DNA from: Muriicola jejuensis | GTDB lineage: Bacteria; Bacteroidota; Bacteroidia; Flavobacteriales; Flavobacteriaceae | Direction: 5' to 3' | Length of the DNA stretch: 64,000 nt | Assembly: GCF_010671595.1 (NCBI RefSeq) | Contig: NZ_JAABOP010000001.1 | Location: 372,001 to 436,000 of the forward strand | Part shown: positions 3,559-11,828 of the stretch, one piece after another | How positions within the stretch are numbered: position 1 is the stretch's first letter | Layout of the letters: each line of letters starts with the position of its first letter | The notes under the pieces: generated by a model | Databases searched by the model: none | Told to the model about the DNA's origin: nothing | Seen by the model: only the letters and a program-made list of their open reading frames with translations | Made by a program: the position numbers and the translations under genes

Positions 3559-3590
3559 AATCCTGTACAGTTACTGTGCAGGATTTTTTT
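3559..3590 (+). terminator. Intrinsic terminator after the YceI gene
   Basis: A 12-bp stem (AATCCTGTACAG with CTGTGCAGGATT, one G-U pair), a TTA loop and a run of T bases. It closes the MarR-nitroreductase-YceI unit. Confidence 0.85.
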
Positions 3591-3629
3591 GTTTCCGGGC
3601 AGCTGGTCGCAAAATTGTTCCTAAAATTC

Positions 3630-3637
3630 TATTTTTG
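3630..3637 (+). promoter_or_regulatory. Possible -7 element for the arylsulfotransferase-like gene
   Basis: TATTTTTG matches TAnnTTTG and lies 16 bases before the ATG at 3654, after the preceding terminator. No TTTG is found at the expected -33 distance. Confidence 0.4.
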
Positions 3638-3653
3638 GGCAAACTTCTCTGAC

Positions 3654-5195
3654 ATGACCAGAATCCAAAGCATCCCGGTGGCTTGTTTCGTCTCTTTATG
3701 TATATGGCTCCTGAACAGTTGCAGTTCAGGATTTGATTATTCTATCGAACCTGAGCTCAACCCTAATAAAATTGCTCCCCTGACAGCCCTTCTCCGTATA
3801 GAAGCTGAGCAACCCGTGAAAGCAACAGTTAAAGTACTGGGGAGCATCCCGGTAGAACAGGAGTTCGAAGAGGTGGCCAAGGTTCTGGAGATCCCGGTAG
3901 TGGGTCTCTATCCCGACCGGGAGAACCGCGTGGCTGTTACCCTGAGCTACGCCGGAGGAGAAGTGAGGGATACTGTAAACATCCTGACTGATAAAGTGCC
4001 TTCGCATTTCCCACACATCGTGGTGGATATCCTGGACCGTGATAAAATGGCCGGGGGAATGCATGGGTGCGACCTCCATCTTGCCAACAGGGGCACCTTT
4101 AGTTCTACACCTCTCATTTTCGATGATGAAGGGAATATCCGATGGTATCTCGATCTCAGCTTTGCCGAAAAAATGGTAAGCCCCTTCCAGCGGCTCAGCG
4201 ATGGGACCCTGCTGATGGTCAGCAGGCACGTGATCTACGAGTTCGATATGCTGGGTAAGATTATTGGTGAGACCTCCATCAACAACAACTACGGGATGCA
4301 CCACGATGTGGTGGAACTCCCGGATGGCAACCTGCTGATCGCCGTGGGCAAGCGAAACAATTTTATCAAACTCGACGGAAATTTCGTGGAATCCGACAGC
4401 GATTTCATCATCCTCTACGACCGAAAAAACGCTCGGATTGCAAGGGAATGGGATATGGCAAATGTAATGGACGTCAGCCGGAAAGATCTGAATTTCTTCA
4501 GGCCGGGGGATTGGTTACATATGAACGGTCTCGCCTTTGATCCACGGGACAACTCCATCATCGTTTCGGGGAAAAACCAGGGACTGTTTAAAATATCCTG
4601 GAACAACGAACTCGAATGGATCCTGGCTCCAAAAAAGAACTGGGGGCCTTCCGGAAGGAATGGGGACGGATTTGAGACGGCTCCTTTCCTGCTCACCGCC
4701 GTGGACGGGGAAGGAAAGCCATTTCCAAACTCTGTACAGATAGGTACGGAGAGCGCCGATGAATTCGACTTCACATGGGGACCCCATGCTCCCAAAATAA
4801 GCCCTGATGGCACCTTGCTCGTATTCGACAACGGCACCTATCGGAACTACGATTCCCAGATACAGTATTCCCGGGCCGTGGAATACAGGATCGATGAAGA
4901 AAACAAGACCGTGGAACAACTATGGCAATACGGCAAAGAAAGGGGAAGCAGCTTCTTTTCCACCATTGTGAGTGACGTGGACTACCTGCCGGAGACCCAG
5001 ACCATCCTGGTCACTTCTGGCTATACCAAGCAAGGAGGCAGGTTGGCAGGAAAGATCGTCGAGGTAGACCGTGAGAGCGGAAAGGAAGTCTTTGAAGCGA
5101 CCGTGTACATGAAGAGTGTGAACGGGAATAAAACACCTTCCTGGGGACAGACGGATATCCTCTACAGGTCCCAGCGTATGCCACTTAAATACTGA
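3654..5195 (+). CDS. Arylsulfotransferase (ASST)-like lipoprotein
   Basis: A 513-residue protein with a lipoprotein signal (LLNSC lipobox, Cys near residue 23). It resembles the arylsulfotransferase family: an amino-terminal beta-sandwich part (about 40-130) followed by a propeller-like region with repeated D-x-x-G-N/T-hydrophobic segments (FDDEGNIRWYLDL, LPDGNLLIAVG, SPDGTLLVFDNGTYR). HHDV (MHHDVVELPDGN) and a second His in WGPHAPKISPDG sit where the family carries catalytic or pocket histidines. Known ASST enzymes move sulfate between phenolic compounds in the periplasm; whether this one does so or hydrolyses or binds another ligand is unclear. The start is the ATG at 3654, giving a normal signal; the longer reading frame upstream runs through a terminator. 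It is a stand-alone gene between two terminators or promoters. Confidence 0.8.
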   Translation: MTRIQSIPVACFVSLCIWLLNSCSSGFDYSIEPELNPNKIAPLTALLRIEAEQPVKATVKVLGSIPVEQEFEEVAKVLEIPVVGLYPDRENRVAVTLSYAGGEVRDTVNILTDKVPSHFPHIVVDILDRDKMAGGMHGCDLHLANRGTFSSTPLIFDDEGNIRWYLDLSFAEKMVSPFQRLSDGTLLMVSRHVIYEFDMLGKIIGETSINNNYGMHHDVVELPDGNLLIAVGKRNNFIKLDGNFVESDSDFIILYDRKNARIAREWDMANVMDVSRKDLNFFRPGDWLHMNGLAFDPRDNSIIVSGKNQGLFKISWNNELEWILAPKKNWGPSGRNGDGFETAPFLLTAVDGEGKPFPNSVQIGTESADEFDFTWGPHAPKISPDGTLLVFDNGTYRNYDSQIQYSRAVEYRIDEENKTVEQLWQYGKERGSSFFSTIVSDVDYLPETQTILVTSGYTKQGGRLAGKIVEVDRESGKEVFEATVYMKSVNGNKTPSWGQTDILYRSQRMPLKY

Positions 5196-5241: not shown

Positions 5242-5272
5242 TTTGAATATATCGGAATCCTTTCTATCTTTG
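5242..5272 (+). promoter_or_regulatory. trp operon promoter
   Basis: TTTG at 5242-5245, a spacer of 19 bases, and TATCTTTG at 5265-5272 form a perfect Bacteroidota housekeeping promoter. The expected transcription start is at about 5276-5278, directly at the leader-peptide start codon. No TrpR-type operator is obvious. Confidence 0.85.
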
Positions 5273-5277
5273 GAATC

Positions 5278-5334
5278 GTGAATAGAATTACAGTACATAC
5301 TTGGTGGTGGAAGAACTTACGTCCTATGTCGTGA
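5278..5334 (+). CDS. trpL: trp operon leader peptide (WWW)
   Basis: An 18-codon frame reading (V/M)NRITVHTWWWKNLRPMS, too short for routine gene calling. Three consecutive TGG codons lie at 5302-5310. The start is GTG at 5278, only a base or two after the predicted transcription start, so the peptide would be translated from an almost leaderless message. Its stop codon (5332-5334) sits inside the 5' arm of the predicted antiterminator. Scarcity of charged tRNA-Trp would stall the ribosome on the TGG codons. No ATG is available in frame, so the GTG is the only credible start. The call rests on position, codon content and the neighbouring hairpins; expression is untested. Confidence 0.85.
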   Translation: MNRITVHTWWWKNLRPMS

Positions 5335-5384
5335 GCGAAGCACATTGAAGTACTACTGTACAAAAAGGCTTGTCTGTCACGACA
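5289..5384 (+). promoter_or_regulatory. trp attenuator: alternative leader hairpins
   Basis: Two alternative pairings can be traced. Hairpin A: 5289-5295 (TACAGTA) and 5298-5302 pair with 5354-5360 and 5348-5352; it includes the first base of the Trp codons. Antiterminator B: 5327-5334 (TGTCGTGA) pairs with 5377-5384 (TCACGACA), extended by AAGC 5338-5341 with GCTT 5368-5371. B uses bases of the terminator stem, and A and B cross each other. A ribosome stalled on TGG covers the 5' arm of A and leaves B free, so transcription continues; a ribosome at the stop codon covers the 5' arm of B, so the terminator forms. Confidence 0.75.
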
Positions 5385-5393
5385 AGCCTTTTT
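5362..5393 (+). terminator. trp attenuator terminator
   Basis: A perfect 13-bp stem (AAAAAGGCTTGTC at 5362-5374, GACAAGCCTTTTT at 5381-5393) with a 6-base loop and a T run, ending 45 bases before trpE. Its 3' stem arm and loop overlap the predicted antiterminator pairing. Confidence 0.9.
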
Positions 5394-5438
5394 GCTTTCC
5401 TGGAGAACCTGAAGTAGATCTTTAAACGAATTGAAAAA

Positions 5439-6836
5439 ATGCCTTACAAACTGCGGACCCACTACAAGAAGATCCTTGCTGACACCATCACCCCGGTAAG
5501 CGTCTACCTGAAGATACGTGATACCTTCCCCAACAGCATCCTGTTGGAGAGTAGCGACTACAGGGCCAATGACAATATGTTTTCCTATATCTGCTGCAAT
5601 CCCATCGCTTCCATCACAGTAGAGAATGAATGTATTACCGAAAACTTCCCGGATGGGAACATAGAGGAAACCCCTATCGGCCCCAACACAGATGTGGCTG
5701 GGGCTATACATCACTTTGCATCACGATTTGAGGTATCTGAGCAGGACTTCAAATTCATCAACAATGGCCTCTTTGGATATCTGGCCTACGATGCAGTCCG
5801 GTATTTCGAGGACGTGGATATCCAGAGAAAGGAGGGTTACATTCCCATTCCCGACGCCTACTATGCGGTCTACCAGAATATCATTGCGATCAACCACTTT
5901 AAGAATGAGGCCTATATTTTTGCTCATTGCTACGAGCAGGTAAACAACATAGACCGGATAGAGCAATTGCTGAATGCCCGTAATTTCGCCTCCTATACCT
6001 TTGCCAAGTCTGGCGCCCGTGAGACGAACCTGAAAGACGAGGCTTACAGGGAATTCGTGGGCAAGGCCAAGGAACACTGTCACCGGGGGGACGTCTTCCA
6101 ACTCGTCCTTTCTCGCAGGTTCTCCCAGAGGTTCAAAGGTGATGATTTTAACGTCTACCGGGCTCTGCGGTCCATCAACCCCTCTCCCTACCTCTTCTAT
6201 TTCGATTATGGGGATTTCAAAATATTCGGAAGTTCCCCGGAGGCACAACTGATCGTGAAGGACGGGAAGGCCGAGATCCATCCTATCGCCGGGACCTTCA
6301 AAAGGACGGGAAATGACGAAGAGGATGCGGTACTCGCCAAAAAACTCTCAGAGGATGCGAAGGAGAACAGTGAGCATGTGATGCTGGTCGACCTGGCGCG
6401 GAACGACCTCAGCAGGAACGGAACCCGGGTTAAGGTAGAAAACTACAGGGAAGTACAGTACTTCTCCCACGTGATCCACCTGGTCTCAAAGGTCAGCGCT
6501 ATGAAAAAGAAGGACATAGACACCCTGAAAGTGGTTGCCGATACCTTTCCGGCCGGCACCCTCAGCGGAGCTCCCAAACACCGGGCCATGCAATTGATAG
6601 AAGAATACGAACCGACCAACAGGGGGTATTACGGAGGGGCGATCGGCTTCATGGATTTCCACGGGAACTTCAACCACGCTATTATGATACGGACCTTCCT
6701 CAGCAAAGACCATACCCTGTATTACCAGGCAGGAGCCGGTCTTGTGGCCGCCTCCGACCCGGAAGCGGAACTGCAGGAGACATACAACAAACTGGGTGCA
6801 CTGAACAAAGCGCTTGAAATCGCTGAAGACCTCTAG
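5439..6836 (+). CDS. trpE: Anthranilate synthase component I
   Basis: A 465-residue chorismate-utilising enzyme that converts chorismate and ammonia (from TrpG) to anthranilate, the first committed step of tryptophan synthesis. The amino-terminal LLESSDY at residues 35-41 is the conserved tryptophan feedback site. The carboxy-terminal chorismate-binding half shows FGSSPEAQL, HPIAGTFKRTG, LVDLARNDLSR and PAGTLSGAPKHRAM in the expected order. It could in principle be a PabB, but the feedback motif and the operon settle it as TrpE. First structural gene after the attenuator; trpG begins one base after its stop. Confidence 0.97.
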   Translation: MPYKLRTHYKKILADTITPVSVYLKIRDTFPNSILLESSDYRANDNMFSYICCNPIASITVENECITENFPDGNIEETPIGPNTDVAGAIHHFASRFEVSEQDFKFINNGLFGYLAYDAVRYFEDVDIQRKEGYIPIPDAYYAVYQNIIAINHFKNEAYIFAHCYEQVNNIDRIEQLLNARNFASYTFAKSGARETNLKDEAYREFVGKAKEHCHRGDVFQLVLSRRFSQRFKGDDFNVYRALRSINPSPYLFYFDYGDFKIFGSSPEAQLIVKDGKAEIHPIAGTFKRTGNDEEDAVLAKKLSEDAKENSEHVMLVDLARNDLSRNGTRVKVENYREVQYFSHVIHLVSKVSAMKKKDIDTLKVVADTFPAGTLSGAPKHRAMQLIEEYEPTNRGYYGGAIGFMDFHGNFNHAIMIRTFLSKDHTLYYQAGAGLVAASDPEAELQETYNKLGALNKALEIAEDL

Positions 6837-6837
6837 G

Positions 6838-7407
6838 ATGATGAAGGTATTGATGATCGACAACTACGACAGTTTCACCTATAATCTGGTGCACTACCTG
6901 GAAGACCTGGGATGCGAGGTGACGGTTAAAAGAAACGACAAATTATCCCTGCAGGACGTGGAACCCTTTCAAAAGATCATTTTGAGCCCCGGTCCGGGCA
7001 TCCCGGATGAGGCGGGATTGCTCAAGGAGATCATAGCGACCTTTTCCCCCAGCAGGAGTATCTTTGGGGTATGCCTGGGGCAACAGGCCATAGGAGAGGT
7101 ATTTGGGGGTCGATTGATCAACCTGCCCGAGGTGTATCACGGAGTGGCGACCGAAGTAGATATCGTAAAAAACGACCCTTTATTCATTGGCCTGCCTTCG
7201 AGGATCTCGGTAGGTCGGTATCATTCCTGGGTGGTAGACCCTGACCTCCCCCCTGATCTCATAGGGACCTCCTTTGATGCCAATGGTCAGCTTATGTCTC
7301 TCAGGCACAGAGAATACGATGTGAGCGGGGTACAATTCCACCCTGAATCCGTCCTCACCCCTGAGGGCAAGAAGATATTAGCGAACTGGATAGAGCAAAA
7401 ACCATGA
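6838..7407 (+). CDS. trpG: Anthranilate synthase glutamine amidotransferase
   Basis: A 189-residue class I glutamine amidotransferase that supplies ammonia to TrpE. The oxyanion strand segment SPGPG (50-54), nucleophile Cys79 in GVCLGQQA and the catalytic VQFHPES histidine are all present. Start at ATG 6838, with an equally plausible second ATG at 6841, both directly after the trpE stop. It overlaps trpD by four bases (ATGA), indicating translational coupling. In some bacteria the same subunit also serves PabB; nothing here decides that. Confidence 0.96.
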   Translation: MMKVLMIDNYDSFTYNLVHYLEDLGCEVTVKRNDKLSLQDVEPFQKIILSPGPGIPDEAGLLKEIIATFSPSRSIFGVCLGQQAIGEVFGGRLINLPEVYHGVATEVDIVKNDPLFIGLPSRISVGRYHSWVVDPDLPPDLIGTSFDANGQLMSLRHREYDVSGVQFHPESVLTPEGKKILANWIEQKP

Positions 7408-8393
7408 AAGAAACATTGAACCGGTTGATCAACCACGAGGTCCTGAGCAGGGAAGACGCCCGCTCCATCCTGATCAGGATGGCCAGGGGGGAATACAACC
7501 CTTCACAGACCGCGGCCTTTCTCACGGTGTATATGATGCGTAGCGTGACCATAGGAGAACTCGAAGGTTTCAGGGATGCCCTGCTGGAACTTTGCCTGGC
7601 GGTAGACCTGTCGGCCTATGACCCTGTCGACCTATGCGGTACAGGGGGAGACGGGAAGGACACCTTCAATATTTCAACCCTTGCATCCTTCGTAACGGCG
7701 GGAGCGGGAATACCGGTGACCAAACACGGGAATTACGGCGTATCCTCTACCTGTGGCAGCAGCAACGTGCTCGAATTCCTGGGTATCCGCTTCAGCAATG
7801 AGGAAGACTTTCTCAGAAAATGCATGGATACTGCCGGGATCTGCGTCCTGCACGCGCCTCTGTTCCATCCGGCCATGAAGAACGTCGCCCCCATCCGAAG
7901 GGAACTGGGTGTCAAGACGTTTTTCAACATGCTCGGCCCCATGGTAAATCCGGCCTTCCCAAAAAACCAGATCGTGGGGGTTTTCAATCTTGAGCTCGCC
8001 CGGATGTACGGCTACCTTTACCAGAACACCGACAAGAAATACACCATCCTCCACGCCCTCGACGGTTATGATGAGATCTCCCTGACCGGACGTACCAAGA
8101 CCATTTCCCATACGACCGAGGCTATGTTACTGCCTGAAGATTTTGGCATAGGTCAGATACAGGGAGGCGATATCGCCGGAGGAGATTCTATAGAGGCCTC
8201 CGCGCAGATCTTTATGGACGTGCTCCAGGGGAAGGGTACCGAAGCCCAGAAACATGTGGTCTGCGCCAATGCGGGCATTGCTATCGCCACCGTAAAGGAT
8301 CTCAGCCCGAAAGAAGGATTTGAGATCGCCATGGAATCCCTGAACAGCGGTGCTGGACTAAAAACCTTCAAAACCCTCCAAGAAATCAGCTGA
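7404..8393 (+). CDS. trpD: Anthranilate phosphoribosyltransferase
   Basis: A 329-residue enzyme that transfers the phosphoribosyl group of PRPP to anthranilate. The glycine-rich PRPP loop GTGGDGKDTFNIST (near residues 74-87) and the anthranilate-site segment KHGNYGVSSTCGSSNVLE are diagnostic. Length is normal for the family. It overlaps trpG (ATGA) at its start, and trpC begins 2 bases after its stop, so it is the third gene of the tightly packed trp operon. Confidence 0.97.
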   Translation: MKETLNRLINHEVLSREDARSILIRMARGEYNPSQTAAFLTVYMMRSVTIGELEGFRDALLELCLAVDLSAYDPVDLCGTGGDGKDTFNISTLASFVTAGAGIPVTKHGNYGVSSTCGSSNVLEFLGIRFSNEEDFLRKCMDTAGICVLHAPLFHPAMKNVAPIRRELGVKTFFNMLGPMVNPAFPKNQIVGVFNLELARMYGYLYQNTDKKYTILHALDGYDEISLTGRTKTISHTTEAMLLPEDFGIGQIQGGDIAGGDSIEASAQIFMDVLQGKGTEAQKHVVCANAGIAIATVKDLSPKEGFEIAMESLNSGAGLKTFKTLQEIS

Positions 8394-8395
8394 CC

Positions 8396-9181
8396 ATGGA
8401 TATCCTTCAAAAAATAGTACAGCAGAAATCGAGGGAAATCGCCCTTAAAAAATCCCTTGTACCCCCTCGTTATCTCGAACATAGCCCCCTATTTGAAAGG
8501 CAGGGGAACTCGCTTTCACAGGCACTTCAAAAGAGTGGTTCCGGGATCATTGCGGAATTCAAACGGAGATCGCCTTCCCGCCCAAAGATCAACCAGCACA
8601 GCCCGGTGCAAGAGGTGGCTGCCGGATACGAAAGTGCGGGCGCTTGCGGGATGTCTGTCCTTACTGACGTACACTTCTTCGGGGGCAGCCTGGAGGACCT
8701 CCTCATAGCCCGTTCCACCACCCGATTCCCTCTCCTGCGCAAGGAATTCATCATAGACGAGTACCAGATCCTGGAGGCGAAGGCCCATGGAGCCGATGTG
8801 ATCCTGCTCATAGCCGCCATCCTGGAGACCCGACAAATAAAAGATTTCACCGAGCTGGCAGGTAGCCTCGGTCTTGAGATCCTCCTCGAGGTACACGACG
8901 AGGCCGAACTAAAAAGAGCATTCATACCTGGGATACAGATGGTTGGGGTCAACAACCGCAACCTGAAGACCTTTGAAGTTTCCCTGGAAACCAGCAAGAG
9001 GATCGCACCCCTTATCCCCGAGGCGGTGATCAAAGTTTCCGAAAGCGGCATTTCCCGGCCCGAAGCCATTAAGGACCTGAGGAAAGCGGGATTCAGGGGC
9101 TTTTTGATAGGGGAGCATTTTATGGCTGCCGACGAGCCCGGGATCAAGGCCATGGAATTCATCAAAGCAATGGAACCATGA
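8396..9181 (+). CDS. trpC: Indole-3-glycerol phosphate synthase
   Basis: A 261-residue TIM-barrel enzyme that closes the indole ring from CdRP. Signature segments are IIAEFKRRSPSRP (catalytic Glu and Lys), LLRKEFIID (catalytic Lys), VGVNNRNLKTF and the phosphate-binding SESGIS. It is a separate polypeptide, not fused to TrpF as in enteric bacteria. Its last codons overlap the start of trpF by four bases (ATGA). Confidence 0.97.
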   Translation: MDILQKIVQQKSREIALKKSLVPPRYLEHSPLFERQGNSLSQALQKSGSGIIAEFKRRSPSRPKINQHSPVQEVAAGYESAGACGMSVLTDVHFFGGSLEDLLIARSTTRFPLLRKEFIIDEYQILEAKAHGADVILLIAAILETRQIKDFTELAGSLGLEILLEVHDEAELKRAFIPGIQMVGVNNRNLKTFEVSLETSKRIAPLIPEAVIKVSESGISRPEAIKDLRKAGFRGFLIGEHFMAADEPGIKAMEFIKAMEP

Positions 9182-9834
9182 AGATCAAGGTTTGTGGCAT
9201 GAAATTCCCGGAGAATATGCAGGAAGTGGCCTCACTCCGGCCCGATTACCTCGGCTTTATCTTCTGGGAACCCTCCCCCAGATATTTTTCAGGCTCCCTG
9301 CCCGAACTCCCTGACCATATCAGGAAGGTAGGGGTCTTTGTGGATGCCCCCATCCCTTATATCCTGGAAAAGACCAGGGATCACTCCCTGGATATGATAC
9401 AATTGCACGGGGATGAATCCCCCGATTTTTGCATCTCCCTAAAGGAAGAACTATCCACCGTGATAGAACACGAAAAAGGCCGCAAGGGGCCGACGGGTGT
9501 GGTCAAGGCATTTGCCGTAGATAAAAGCTTTTCCTTCGACTCCCTGAGATCCTACGAGCCCGGGGTCGATTATTTCCTCTTTGACAGCAAGGGACCACTG
9601 CCCGGGGGGAATGGATTTGCATTCGACTGGAGTCTCCTGGAGGGCTATACCCTCAACACCCCCTTCTTCCTCAGCGGGGGTATCGGAATGGCAGAAACGG
9701 AAAATCTGCGGCATTTCCTCAAGACCCCCCTGGCGGAGAAATGCCACGCCATCGATGTGAACAGCGGCTTTGAGGTACGGCCGGGCCTGAAGGATCCCAG
9801 CCGGCTACAAACCTTTATAAAAAAAATAATGTGA
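9178..9834 (+). CDS. trpF: Phosphoribosylanthranilate isomerase
   Basis: A 218-residue TIM-barrel isomerase converting PRA to CdRP. The general base Cys6 in KVCGMK, the FLFDSKG segment carrying the catalytic Asp, and the phosphate-binding LSGGIG are visible. Slightly longer than the usual 200-210 residues because of a charged insert around residues 95-105. It overlaps trpC (ATGA) and trpB (TGATG), consistent with a coupled operon. Confidence 0.96.
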
Positions 9835-11024
9835 TGAAAATGAATCGGTATCAAGCAGACGAAAGAGGGTATTACGGGGAGTTCGGCGGAGCCTTTATCC
9901 CTGAGATGCTCTATCCCAATACGGAGGAACTCAGGCAAAACTACCTGAGAATCATGGGTGAACCGGATTTCCAGGAAGAATTCCGGCAACTTCTTAGGGA
10001 CTACGTGGGAAGGCCCACCCCCCTCTATTTCGCCAAGAGGCTCTCTGAAAAATTCAAGGCCAGGATCTACCTGAAGCGGGAAGACCTCTGCCATACAGGG
10101 GCCCATAAGGTGAACAACACCATAGGTCAGATCCTGATGGCAAAGAAACTGGGTAAGAGCCGGATCATCGCTGAGACCGGGGCCGGCCAGCACGGAGTGG
10201 CCACAGCTACGGTCTGTGCCCTTATGGGGATGGAATGCATCGTCTACATGGGGGAGGTGGATATCGCCCGACAGGCTCCCAACGTGGCCCGGATGAAAAT
10301 GCTCGGAGCTGAGGTGAGACCTGCAAGATCCGGGAGCCGTACCCTGAAGGACGCCACCAACGAGGCCATACGGGACTGGATCAACAACCCCGTGAATACC
10401 CACTACATCATAGGTTCCGTCGTAGGACCCCATCCCTACCCGGATATGGTTGCCAGATTTCAGGCTGTGATCTCTGAAGAAATTAAATGGCAACTGAAGG
10501 AAAAAGAAGGAAAGGAAGATCCCGATTACGTGGTTGCCTGCGTGGGTGGCGGGAGCAATGCAGCCGGCACCTATTATCACTACCTGGATAATGAACAGGT
10601 AGGCATCATCGCCGTCGAAGCGGCAGGGAAAGGGGTGGACTCCGGGGAGAGTGCCGCCACTTCCGCCCTTGGGAAGGTAGGGATCATACACGGCAGTAAG
10701 ACCCTGCTTATGCAGACCGGGGATGGGCAGATCACGGAACCCTATTCCATTTCGGCCGGACTCGACTATCCCGGGGTAGGTCCCATGCATGCCCATCTCT
10801 ACAAATCGGGGCGGGCAGATTTTATCGCTATTACGGATGATGAGGCCATGGCGGCCGGACTCATGGTTTCCCAGCTCGAAGGGATCATCCCTGCCATTGA
10901 AACCTCCCATGCCTTTGCCATTTTCGATCACAGGACATTCAAACCGGACGATATCATCGTCATCAACCTCTCCGGACGGGGCGATAAGGACCTGCAGACC
11001 TATATCGATTATTTTAAACTGTAA
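9834..11024 (+). CDS. trpB: Tryptophan synthase beta subunit
   Basis: A 396-residue PLP enzyme that joins indole and serine to give tryptophan. The PLP lysine is Lys92 in HTGAHKVNN; the phosphate loop GGGSNA and the substrate loop ETGAGQHG are intact. This is the TrpB1 type that works with TrpA. The start is ATG 9834, overlapping the trpF stop (TGATG); an ATG six bases later is possible. A 33-base gap separates it from trpA. Confidence 0.98.
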
Positions 11025-11057: not shown

Positions 11058-11828
11058 ATGAACAGGATTCAAGAGAAAATGAGATCGGGTCACAAGTTGC
11101 TGTCCATCTATTTTACAGCCGGGTACCCAAAGTTGGAAGACACCGTCCCCGTCATCGAAGCCCTGGATGAAGCGGGGGTCGACATGATAGAAATAGGCCT
11201 CCCTTTTAGCGACCCCCTGGCAGACGGACCCACCATTCAGGCCAGTTCCACGGCTGCACTGAAAAATGGAATGCATACCGAACTTTTATTCCGGCAACTG
11301 AAAGGCATAAGGGAGAAGACAGACATCCCGTTGATCATCATGGGGTACTTCAACCCCGTGTTGCAATACGGCGTGGAAGCCTTTTGCAAAAAATGTCGGG
11401 AAGTGGGCATTGACGGCCTCATCCTACCGGACCTCCCGCTGGATGTGTATCAGGAGGAATACGAGCCACTCTTTAAGGCGAACGGCCTCCTCAATGTCTT
11501 TCTGATCACCCCCCAGACCCCAAATGAACGCATACGGAAGATAGACGAAGGATCCGATGGATTTATCTATATGGTGAGTTCGGCCAGTACCACAGGTGCC
11601 AGGGACGGGTTCGGGCCGGAACAGCGGGCGTATTTTGAAAGGATCCATTCCATGGGCCTGAAGAATCCCCAGATCGTTGGTTTCGGGATCAGCAATGCCG
11701 ATACTTTTGCGCAGGCCACCACCCATGCCCATGGGGCTATCATAGGATCGGCCTTTATCAAAATGCTGACTGAAGACGGAAAAACCGGCATTGCACCCTT
11801 TATCCGTTCTATCAGAAAGAGTCCCTGA
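11058..11828 (+). CDS. trpA: Tryptophan synthase alpha subunit
   Basis: A 256-residue TIM-barrel subunit that cleaves indole-3-glycerol phosphate and channels indole to TrpB. The catalytic Glu45 and Asp56 lie in the segment EIGLPFSDPLADGP, matching the family pair Glu49/Asp60 of Salmonella. The phosphate loop GFGISNADTF and the GAIIGSAFIK segment are also intact. Last gene of the trp operon; no clear intrinsic terminator is visible before the following peptidase gene, 66 bases away. Confidence 0.97.
   Translation: MNRIQEKMRSGHKLLSIYFTAGYPKLEDTVPVIEALDEAGVDMIEIGLPFSDPLADGPTIQASSTAALKNGMHTELLFRQLKGIREKTDIPLIIMGYFNPVLQYGVEAFCKKCREVGIDGLILPDLPLDVYQEEYEPLFKANGLLNVFLITPQTPNERIRKIDEGSDGFIYMVSSASTTGARDGFGPEQRAYFERIHSMGLKNPQIVGFGISNADTFAQATTHAHGAIIGSAFIKMLTEDGKTGIAPFIRSIRKSP

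Follow-up and report, generated by a model that had tools for sequence, protein, structure and literature searches.

The trp operon and its leader

The window analyzed here is a stretch of 64,000 nucleotides from Muriicola jejuensis. A leader lies directly upstream of its trpE-G-D-C-F-B-A genes, the location expected for Bacteroid-trp RNAs. The genes of the operon are as follows.

5439–6836, plus strand: trpE, anthranilate synthase component I (TIGR00564 at 428.1 bits, below the cut-off of 517.7; both Pfam domains above cut-off)
6814–7407, plus strand: trpG (passes the curated cut-off; start codon uncertain)
7404–8393, plus strand: trpD (passes the curated cut-off)
8396–9181, plus strand: trpC (passes the curated cut-off)
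9178–9834, plus strand: trpF (best model below its cut-off)
9831–11024, plus strand: trpB (passes the curated cut-off)
11058–11828, plus strand: trpA (passes the curated cut-off)

An earlier reading, made from the letters of the DNA alone (the sequence-only reading), had placed an attenuator before trpE, and the gene order agrees: trpE begins at 5439 and is followed by trpG-D-C-F-B-A. Among the matches listed in named genomes, from which the source genome was possibly excluded, the nearest TrpE is that of Muriicola marianensis (91% identity over the best segment). The gene preceding the trp promoter (window positions 3576–5195) encodes an arylsulfotransferase-like protein (PF05935).

The leader region contains the following features.

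5242–5245, plus strand: −33 promoter element TTTG (match to the Bacteroidetes consensus; weak evidence)
5265–5272, plus strand: −7 promoter element TATCTTTG (match to the Bacteroidetes consensus)
5277–5278, plus strand: predicted transcription start, at or 1 base before the start codon, placed from the box position and a fixed 5-nt spacing
5278–5334, plus strand: leader open reading frame (ORF) of 18 codons, GTG start, encoding VNRITVHTWWWKNLRPMS, stop codon TGA at 5332–5334
5302–5310, plus strand: three tandem Trp codons (TGG), seen in the sequence
5289–5302, plus strand: 5′ arm of outer hairpin A (pairs with 5348–5360), minimum-energy fold
5348–5360, plus strand: 3′ arm of outer hairpin A (pairs with 5289–5302), minimum-energy fold
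5316–5321, plus strand: 5′ strand of the protector hairpin, CUUACG, from the fold; a ribosome halted at the Trp codons is proposed to cover it
5330–5335, plus strand: 3′ strand of the protector hairpin, CGUGAG, from the fold; overlaps the antiterminator 5′ strand
5327–5341, plus strand: antiterminator 5′ strand, with core 5327–5334 (UGUCGUGA) and extension 5337–5341
5368–5384, plus strand: antiterminator 3′ strand, with core 5377–5384 (UCACGACA) and extension within 5368–5374
5361–5394, plus strand: intrinsic terminator hairpin of 14 pairs with loop 5375–5380, minimum-energy fold

Positions 5258–5374 match the full model (1–131) of the Rfam family RF01692, Bacteroid-trp, at 55.6 bits against a gathering score of 49. 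This is the only family that reaches its gathering score in an Rfam search of the window, in which no T-box or riboswitch covariance match was found at that level, and the family is matched only once in the genome, upstream of trpE. In the accessible text of Weinberg 2010 (PMC2864571), Bacteroid-trp is tabulated as a likely RNA and a likely cis-regulator. The accessible part of PMC6414381 names it upstream of the trp genes of Flavobacterium psychrophilum and reads it as an attenuator, and the word Bacteroid is absent from the main text of PMC2965389. The trp leader is therefore a member of a family catalogued since 2010 and is ordinary in kind, a membership that the sequence-only reading had missed. 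The model and the locus share the site upstream of trpE, the UGG run, the nested hairpin and the start of the terminator. However, the model stops within the 5′ arm of the terminator, so that the complete terminator and the antiterminator described here fall outside it.

The leader frame had been described as 18 codons with three consecutive TGG codons, exactly as found: it runs from GTG at 5278 to TGA at 5332–5334, with the TGG codons at 5302–5310. GTG starts are rare in such leaders, being present in 2/129 loci and in 2/80 relatives selected by their TrpE. The consensus promoter claimed in the same reading is also present. Nineteen nucleotides separate TTTG (5242–5245) from TATCTTTG (5265–5272), an arrangement that fits the Bacteroidetes consensus TTTG/TANNTTTG quoted in PMC6847099; the −33 part is weak evidence. 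For Flavobacterium johnsoniae, a −33 part could not be identified, according to the accessible text of PMC7366714. A scan for sigma-70 promoters did not report the TATCTTTG promoter because it is of another type.

Distribution of the leader and spacing of its start codon

Matches to RF01692 occur in 8/9 genomes of the genus, the source genome included. They were found in 71/100 genomes of a family sample (Flavobacteriaceae) and in 42/395 genomes of a phylum sample, both searched with stricter filters, under which weak matches are lost. A trpE match at E ≤ 3.5e-84 is present in 91 of the 100 genomes in the family sample (that of G470 is a fragment), and the nine genomes without such a trpE have no RF01692 match. 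Of the 71 matches, 70 lie upstream of trpE on the same strand, at a distance of 27–425 bases and with a leader ORF carrying tandem Trp codons (WW). The remaining one (G473) is on another contig and is cut by contig ends, and a TGG TGG TGG run ends the contig that carries trpE. Twenty genomes have trpE without an RF01692 match, and 18 of these were examined, leaving out the G470 fragment and G457, in which the contig ends at the start of trpE. Of the 18, 17 have a short ORF in which two or more Trp codons stand in tandem. Altogether, the leader precedes 88 of the 89 trpE genes that could be examined in the family sample, with G473 counted by its Rfam match and its TGG run.

The search model that yielded most loci of the first set itself contains UGG codons, a circularity that the sets chosen by TrpE answer. 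The second set consists of the best 80 of at least 578 TrpE relatives in named genomes, picked by TrpE alone; at least 8 of them occur in the first set as well, and many are closely related. A leader with three tandem Trp codons (WWW) and the motif CGTGA are each present in 80/80, the longer GTCGTGA in 35, and the terminator pattern in 79/80. Conservation of the TGG run in relatives, which the sequence-only reading had put forward as a check, is thus observed both in this set (80/80) and in the family sample (88/89).

The divergent trp leaders at loci L118–L134, which carry two or three Trp codons, go unreported in the stricter-filter Rfam search, and adding them to RF01692 could widen the model. 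The sole examined trpE without a Trp-codon leader is L135, in genome G427 (∼1.6 Mb), whose TrpE is 50% identical to that of the window.

The leader start codon lies 5 nt past the −7 box. According to the accessible text of PMC9723704, the TAnnTTTG box of F. psychrophilum occupies positions −12 to −5, which would place the transcription start in the window at about 5277 or 5278, at the GTG. The box spacing predicts that the leader mRNA is leaderless, or has at most a few bases ahead of the start codon. If the RNA does begin at its start codon, a ribosome could load before any hairpin forms. To our knowledge, the phylum Bacteroidetes is without Shine-Dalgarno sequences, and a leaderless trp leader would be a natural regulated test case for initiation at a 5′-terminal codon in their absence.

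Within the genus, the spacing between box and start codon is 5 nt in 8/8 loci. Among the 80 TrpE-selected relatives it is 5 nt in 54, 7 in 20, 8 in 3, 4 in 1, 6 in 1 and 30 in 1, so that 79/80 fall within 8 nt. The 54 loci with 5-nt spacing have 28 different linkers, most of which end in an A preceded by C; this dinucleotide could be an initiator. We consider it probable, with considerable reservation, that a clade of Flavobacteriaceae around Muriicola, Maribacter and Arenibacter carries its attenuator on a leaderless mRNA, with the 5′ end of the RNA at the start codon (GUG in the window) and with the promoter-to-start spacing selected as part of the switch.

The competing account is that the attenuator is correctly identified but transcription starts further upstream, the fixed spacing having some other explanation. 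We regard this as unlikely, though by no means negligible, given that the 5′ end here is predicted rather than mapped. It draws on relatives in which the leader has the look of an ordinary short 5′ UTR: one genus (coded g2) has 16–20 nt between box and start codon in its 20 loci, and among the 95 genera that have a box, 23 show a spacing of 4–6 nt, 28 of 7–12 and 41 of 13–24, with 3 outside these ranges. A large share of the family probably has a short ordinary 5′ UTR on the leader, judging from these spacings. Leaderless mRNAs are also a minority where they have been counted, at 5.5% of 890 examined in F. psychrophilum (PMC9723704, accessible text) and with ∼3.7% of 5′ UTRs shorter than 10 nt in Bacteroides thetaiotaomicron (PMC7366714, accessible text). 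Against an upstream start, the −7 box is found in 125/129 loci but in only 5.4% of shuffled upstream stretches (in three genera it is absent within 60 nt), and the spacing of exactly 5 nt persists in 54/80 loci despite their 28 different linkers. Moreover, a mechanical ORF call retained 58 genes in the window; a box lies no more than 120 nt away in 12 of them, and always at a spacing of at least 14 nt. A leaderless or nearly leaderless mRNA is consequently the reading that we favor for the window.

There is a parallel in another phylum. The trpL leader of Sinorhizobium meliloti contains Trp codons. Its RNA begins with the ATG of the leader ORF (PMC7298713, accessible text), making it a leaderless Trp-containing leader of the kind predicted here. 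It differs in being alphaproteobacterial, with a leader of 14 residues, and in that its 5′ end is reported in that text, whereas the one here is predicted.

Leaders are also present elsewhere in these genomes. In the M. jejuensis genome, a his leader before hisG (L137:1336–1497, on G000:C20) has the box TACTTTTG, 6 nt, ATG and the sequence MNNQNTHHHSASRPQAG, with a hairpin and a T run, recognized by eye, before hisG. A leader ORF with tandem His codons (HHH) is present in 26/30 of the hisG loci examined (49 were found). Seven hisG leaders have a strict box, and the spacing is 6–7 nt in 3 and 18–19 nt in 4. A box-plus-ORF scan recognized no leader at the prephenate dehydratase, homoserine dehydrogenase and ilvD genes of the same genome, where the flanks may stop short of the starts of two long homoserine dehydrogenase frames. 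For F. psychrophilum, the accessible part of PMC9723704 gives clues to attenuation and leader peptides upstream of amino acid operons and reports structured elements in front of hisG and pheA; that species belongs to the same broader group as M. jejuensis. That text, its supplements aside, contains no description of a trp antiterminator or of where the trp leader starts. Likewise, in the accessible literature, most subscription papers and supplements lying outside it, we found no account of a Bacteroidetes trp leader antiterminator or leaderless start, which is a weak negative.

Competing helices and the proposed switch

The region 5270–5420 (151 bases) folds with a z-score of −2.69, and 1/200 shuffles folds equally well. 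The minimum-energy fold contains outer hairpin A as the sequence-only reading had drawn it (5289–5302 with 5348–5360). It also contains the terminator, pairing 5361–5374 with 5381–5394, and the perfect 13-bp stem proposed earlier at 5362–5393 lies within these 14 pairs. A simple terminator scan did not report the hairpin because the U run sits inside the stem, in its 3′ arm. The best antiterminator duplex (−17.3 kcal/mol) joins 5327–5334 to 5377–5384 in 8 unbroken base pairs and 5337–5341 to parts of 5368–5374. Its 3′ strand, 5368–5384, overlaps both arms and the loop of the terminator, in keeping with the competition that had been claimed between the two.

Two details of the earlier description need correction. 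The antiterminator does not start at the leader stop codon; instead, the stop codon forms the 3′ end of the 8-bp core. Hairpin A and the antiterminator, said to cross each other, have no bases in common, and for this reason hairpin A was rejected as the competing helix. The helix that does share bases with the antiterminator is an inner hairpin, 5316–5321 with 5330–5335, which begins just 3′ of the Trp codons. This protector hairpin fits the competing role better.

These elements suggest the following switch. RNA polymerase would start at or next to the leader GTG, and a ribosome would translate the 18 codons. With enough charged tRNA-Trp, the ribosome would reach the stop codon and cover the antiterminator strand 5327–5341, leaving terminator 5361–5394 to halt transcription upstream of trpE. 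When charged tRNA-Trp is short, the ribosome would presumably stall on the TGG run with its footprint over the protector 5′ strand 5316–5321. With the protector blocked, 5327–5341 would be free to pair with 5368–5384 once the latter is transcribed; the terminator could not then form, and trpEGDCFBA would be transcribed. If there is no translation at all, the protector and hairpin A would form and the terminator would be the default.

Constrained folding is consistent with parts of this scheme. When the RNA before 5323 is hidden, the antiterminator is the best fold of a transcript ending at 5384 (−18.6), and the terminator is the best fold of one ending at 5400 (−24.8). The complete terminator is thus preferred even with the start hidden, and the switch must therefore be kinetic, decided during transcription. 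Hiding the RNA only up to 5316 still lets the protector form, and the decision depends on the ribosome footprint that is assumed.

The trp leader of E. coli has tandem Trp codons, a chain of protector, antiterminator and terminator helices, and a stop codon within the antiterminator strand. All three are common to both systems. The E. coli leader has two Trp codons and the present locus three, and this locus adds the outer hairpin, a Bacteroidetes promoter and the predicted leaderless start. By analogy, the E. coli 1:2 hairpin would correspond to the protector hairpin more than to outer hairpin A.

Pairing preferences among relatives

To compare relatives, duplex energies were calculated for strands paired with their own partners and with swapped partners. 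Pairs were not counted in a MAFFT alignment of same-length leaders (31/62) because of insertions and deletions between the antiterminator and the terminator. L128, whose terminator was miscalled, was left out of the genus-level tests. The permutations treat genera as independent, and relatedness inflates the significance of the values that follow. Antiterminators of 97 genera average −12.61 kcal/mol with native partners against −11.64 with swapped ones, and 0/20,000 permutations are as good. For hairpin A the values are −6.16 and −4.82, again with 0/20,000 permutations as good.

The protector gives the same outcome in the 77 genera with CGTGA (0/20,000 permutations as good). In local folds, at least 3 of the 5 CGUGA bases are paired in 76/77 of these genera; when the 5′ part is shuffled, the mean is 46.3 and the maximum 55 of 77. 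The protector 5′ strand starts 0–6 bases past the last Trp codon, where a stalled ribosome would sit. All three stems therefore prefer their own partners, the result that the sequence-only reading had sought from relatives. The position of CGTGA was recorded in 129 of 136 loci (no record for L028, L043, L070, L089, L131, L135 and L136): it coincides with the leader stop codon in 67, sits out of frame within the ORF in 19, follows the stop in 20 and is missing from 23. These varied positions relative to the ORF point to a constraint on the RNA rather than on coding.

At the level of single loci, the antiterminator was scored in 117/136, the 19 without a record, the window's own among them, being left out. 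The terminator is standard in 88 of the 117 and variant in 29, of which 26 are distinct. Pairs with a standard terminator cannot covary, so that the test rests on the 29 variant loci. The 26 distinct variants average −12.72 kcal/mol with their own spacers and −10.60 kcal/mol with swapped spacers; 1/20,000 permutations is as good. No more than 10/200 shuffled spacers are as good as the native one in 79/117 loci, and the other 38 lie above that. Of the 29 variant loci, 15 have a terminator to which half or more of the 88 standard spacers pair no worse than the native spacer, and the own spacers of L071, L114, L123 and L134 are no better than shuffles. The mutual exclusion of protector, antiterminator and terminator accordingly appears in predicted pairing and in the preference for own over swapped partners, and locus by locus the antiterminator pairing is often undecided.

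Taken with the conserved TGG runs, the partner preferences support the E. coli-like logic that the sequence-only reading had recognized, once the protector replaces hairpin A as the competing helix. It is highly probable that this locus, a member of the Bacteroid-trp family, attenuates transcription of the trp operon by a ribosome-mediated mechanism. All sequence signs point to a trp attenuator, and its action in the cell is what we infer from them. It offers a clean and well-conserved Bacteroidetes example of E. coli-style attenuation in which the competing helices are named and backed by comparison.

Two other explanations are very improbable. In the first, the hairpin would be no more than an ordinary terminator or some 5′ UTR structure, and the Trp codons would be incidental. 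Intergenic terminators are common, and the one here is strong on its own; however, this account leaves aside the WWW of the short leader, kept in 80/80 TrpE-selected relatives, and the fit of protector and antiterminator to their own partners. We give equally little credence to the second, an arrest peptide that senses free tryptophan, as TnaC does, rather than charged tRNA-Trp: the short leader does contain Trp residues, but the residues preceding the Trp run vary by locus while the tandem Trp codons are constant, and induction by Trp, as with TnaC, would have the wrong sign for a biosynthetic operon.

Among the individual loci favoring attenuation, clear own-partner antiterminators are found in L098 (TTGTCGCAAT with ATTGCGACAA), L116, L075, L076 and L132. 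At L071, AAAGTCTT matches, by eye, AAGACTTT in the outer 5′ arm, partly outside the scored target. L132, which lies upstream of trpE in genome G367, has a WWW leader and an antiterminator formed by GGATTCAG with CTGAATCC, unlike the usual GTCGTGA element. This locus suggests that the switch sequence was replaced and its logic retained.
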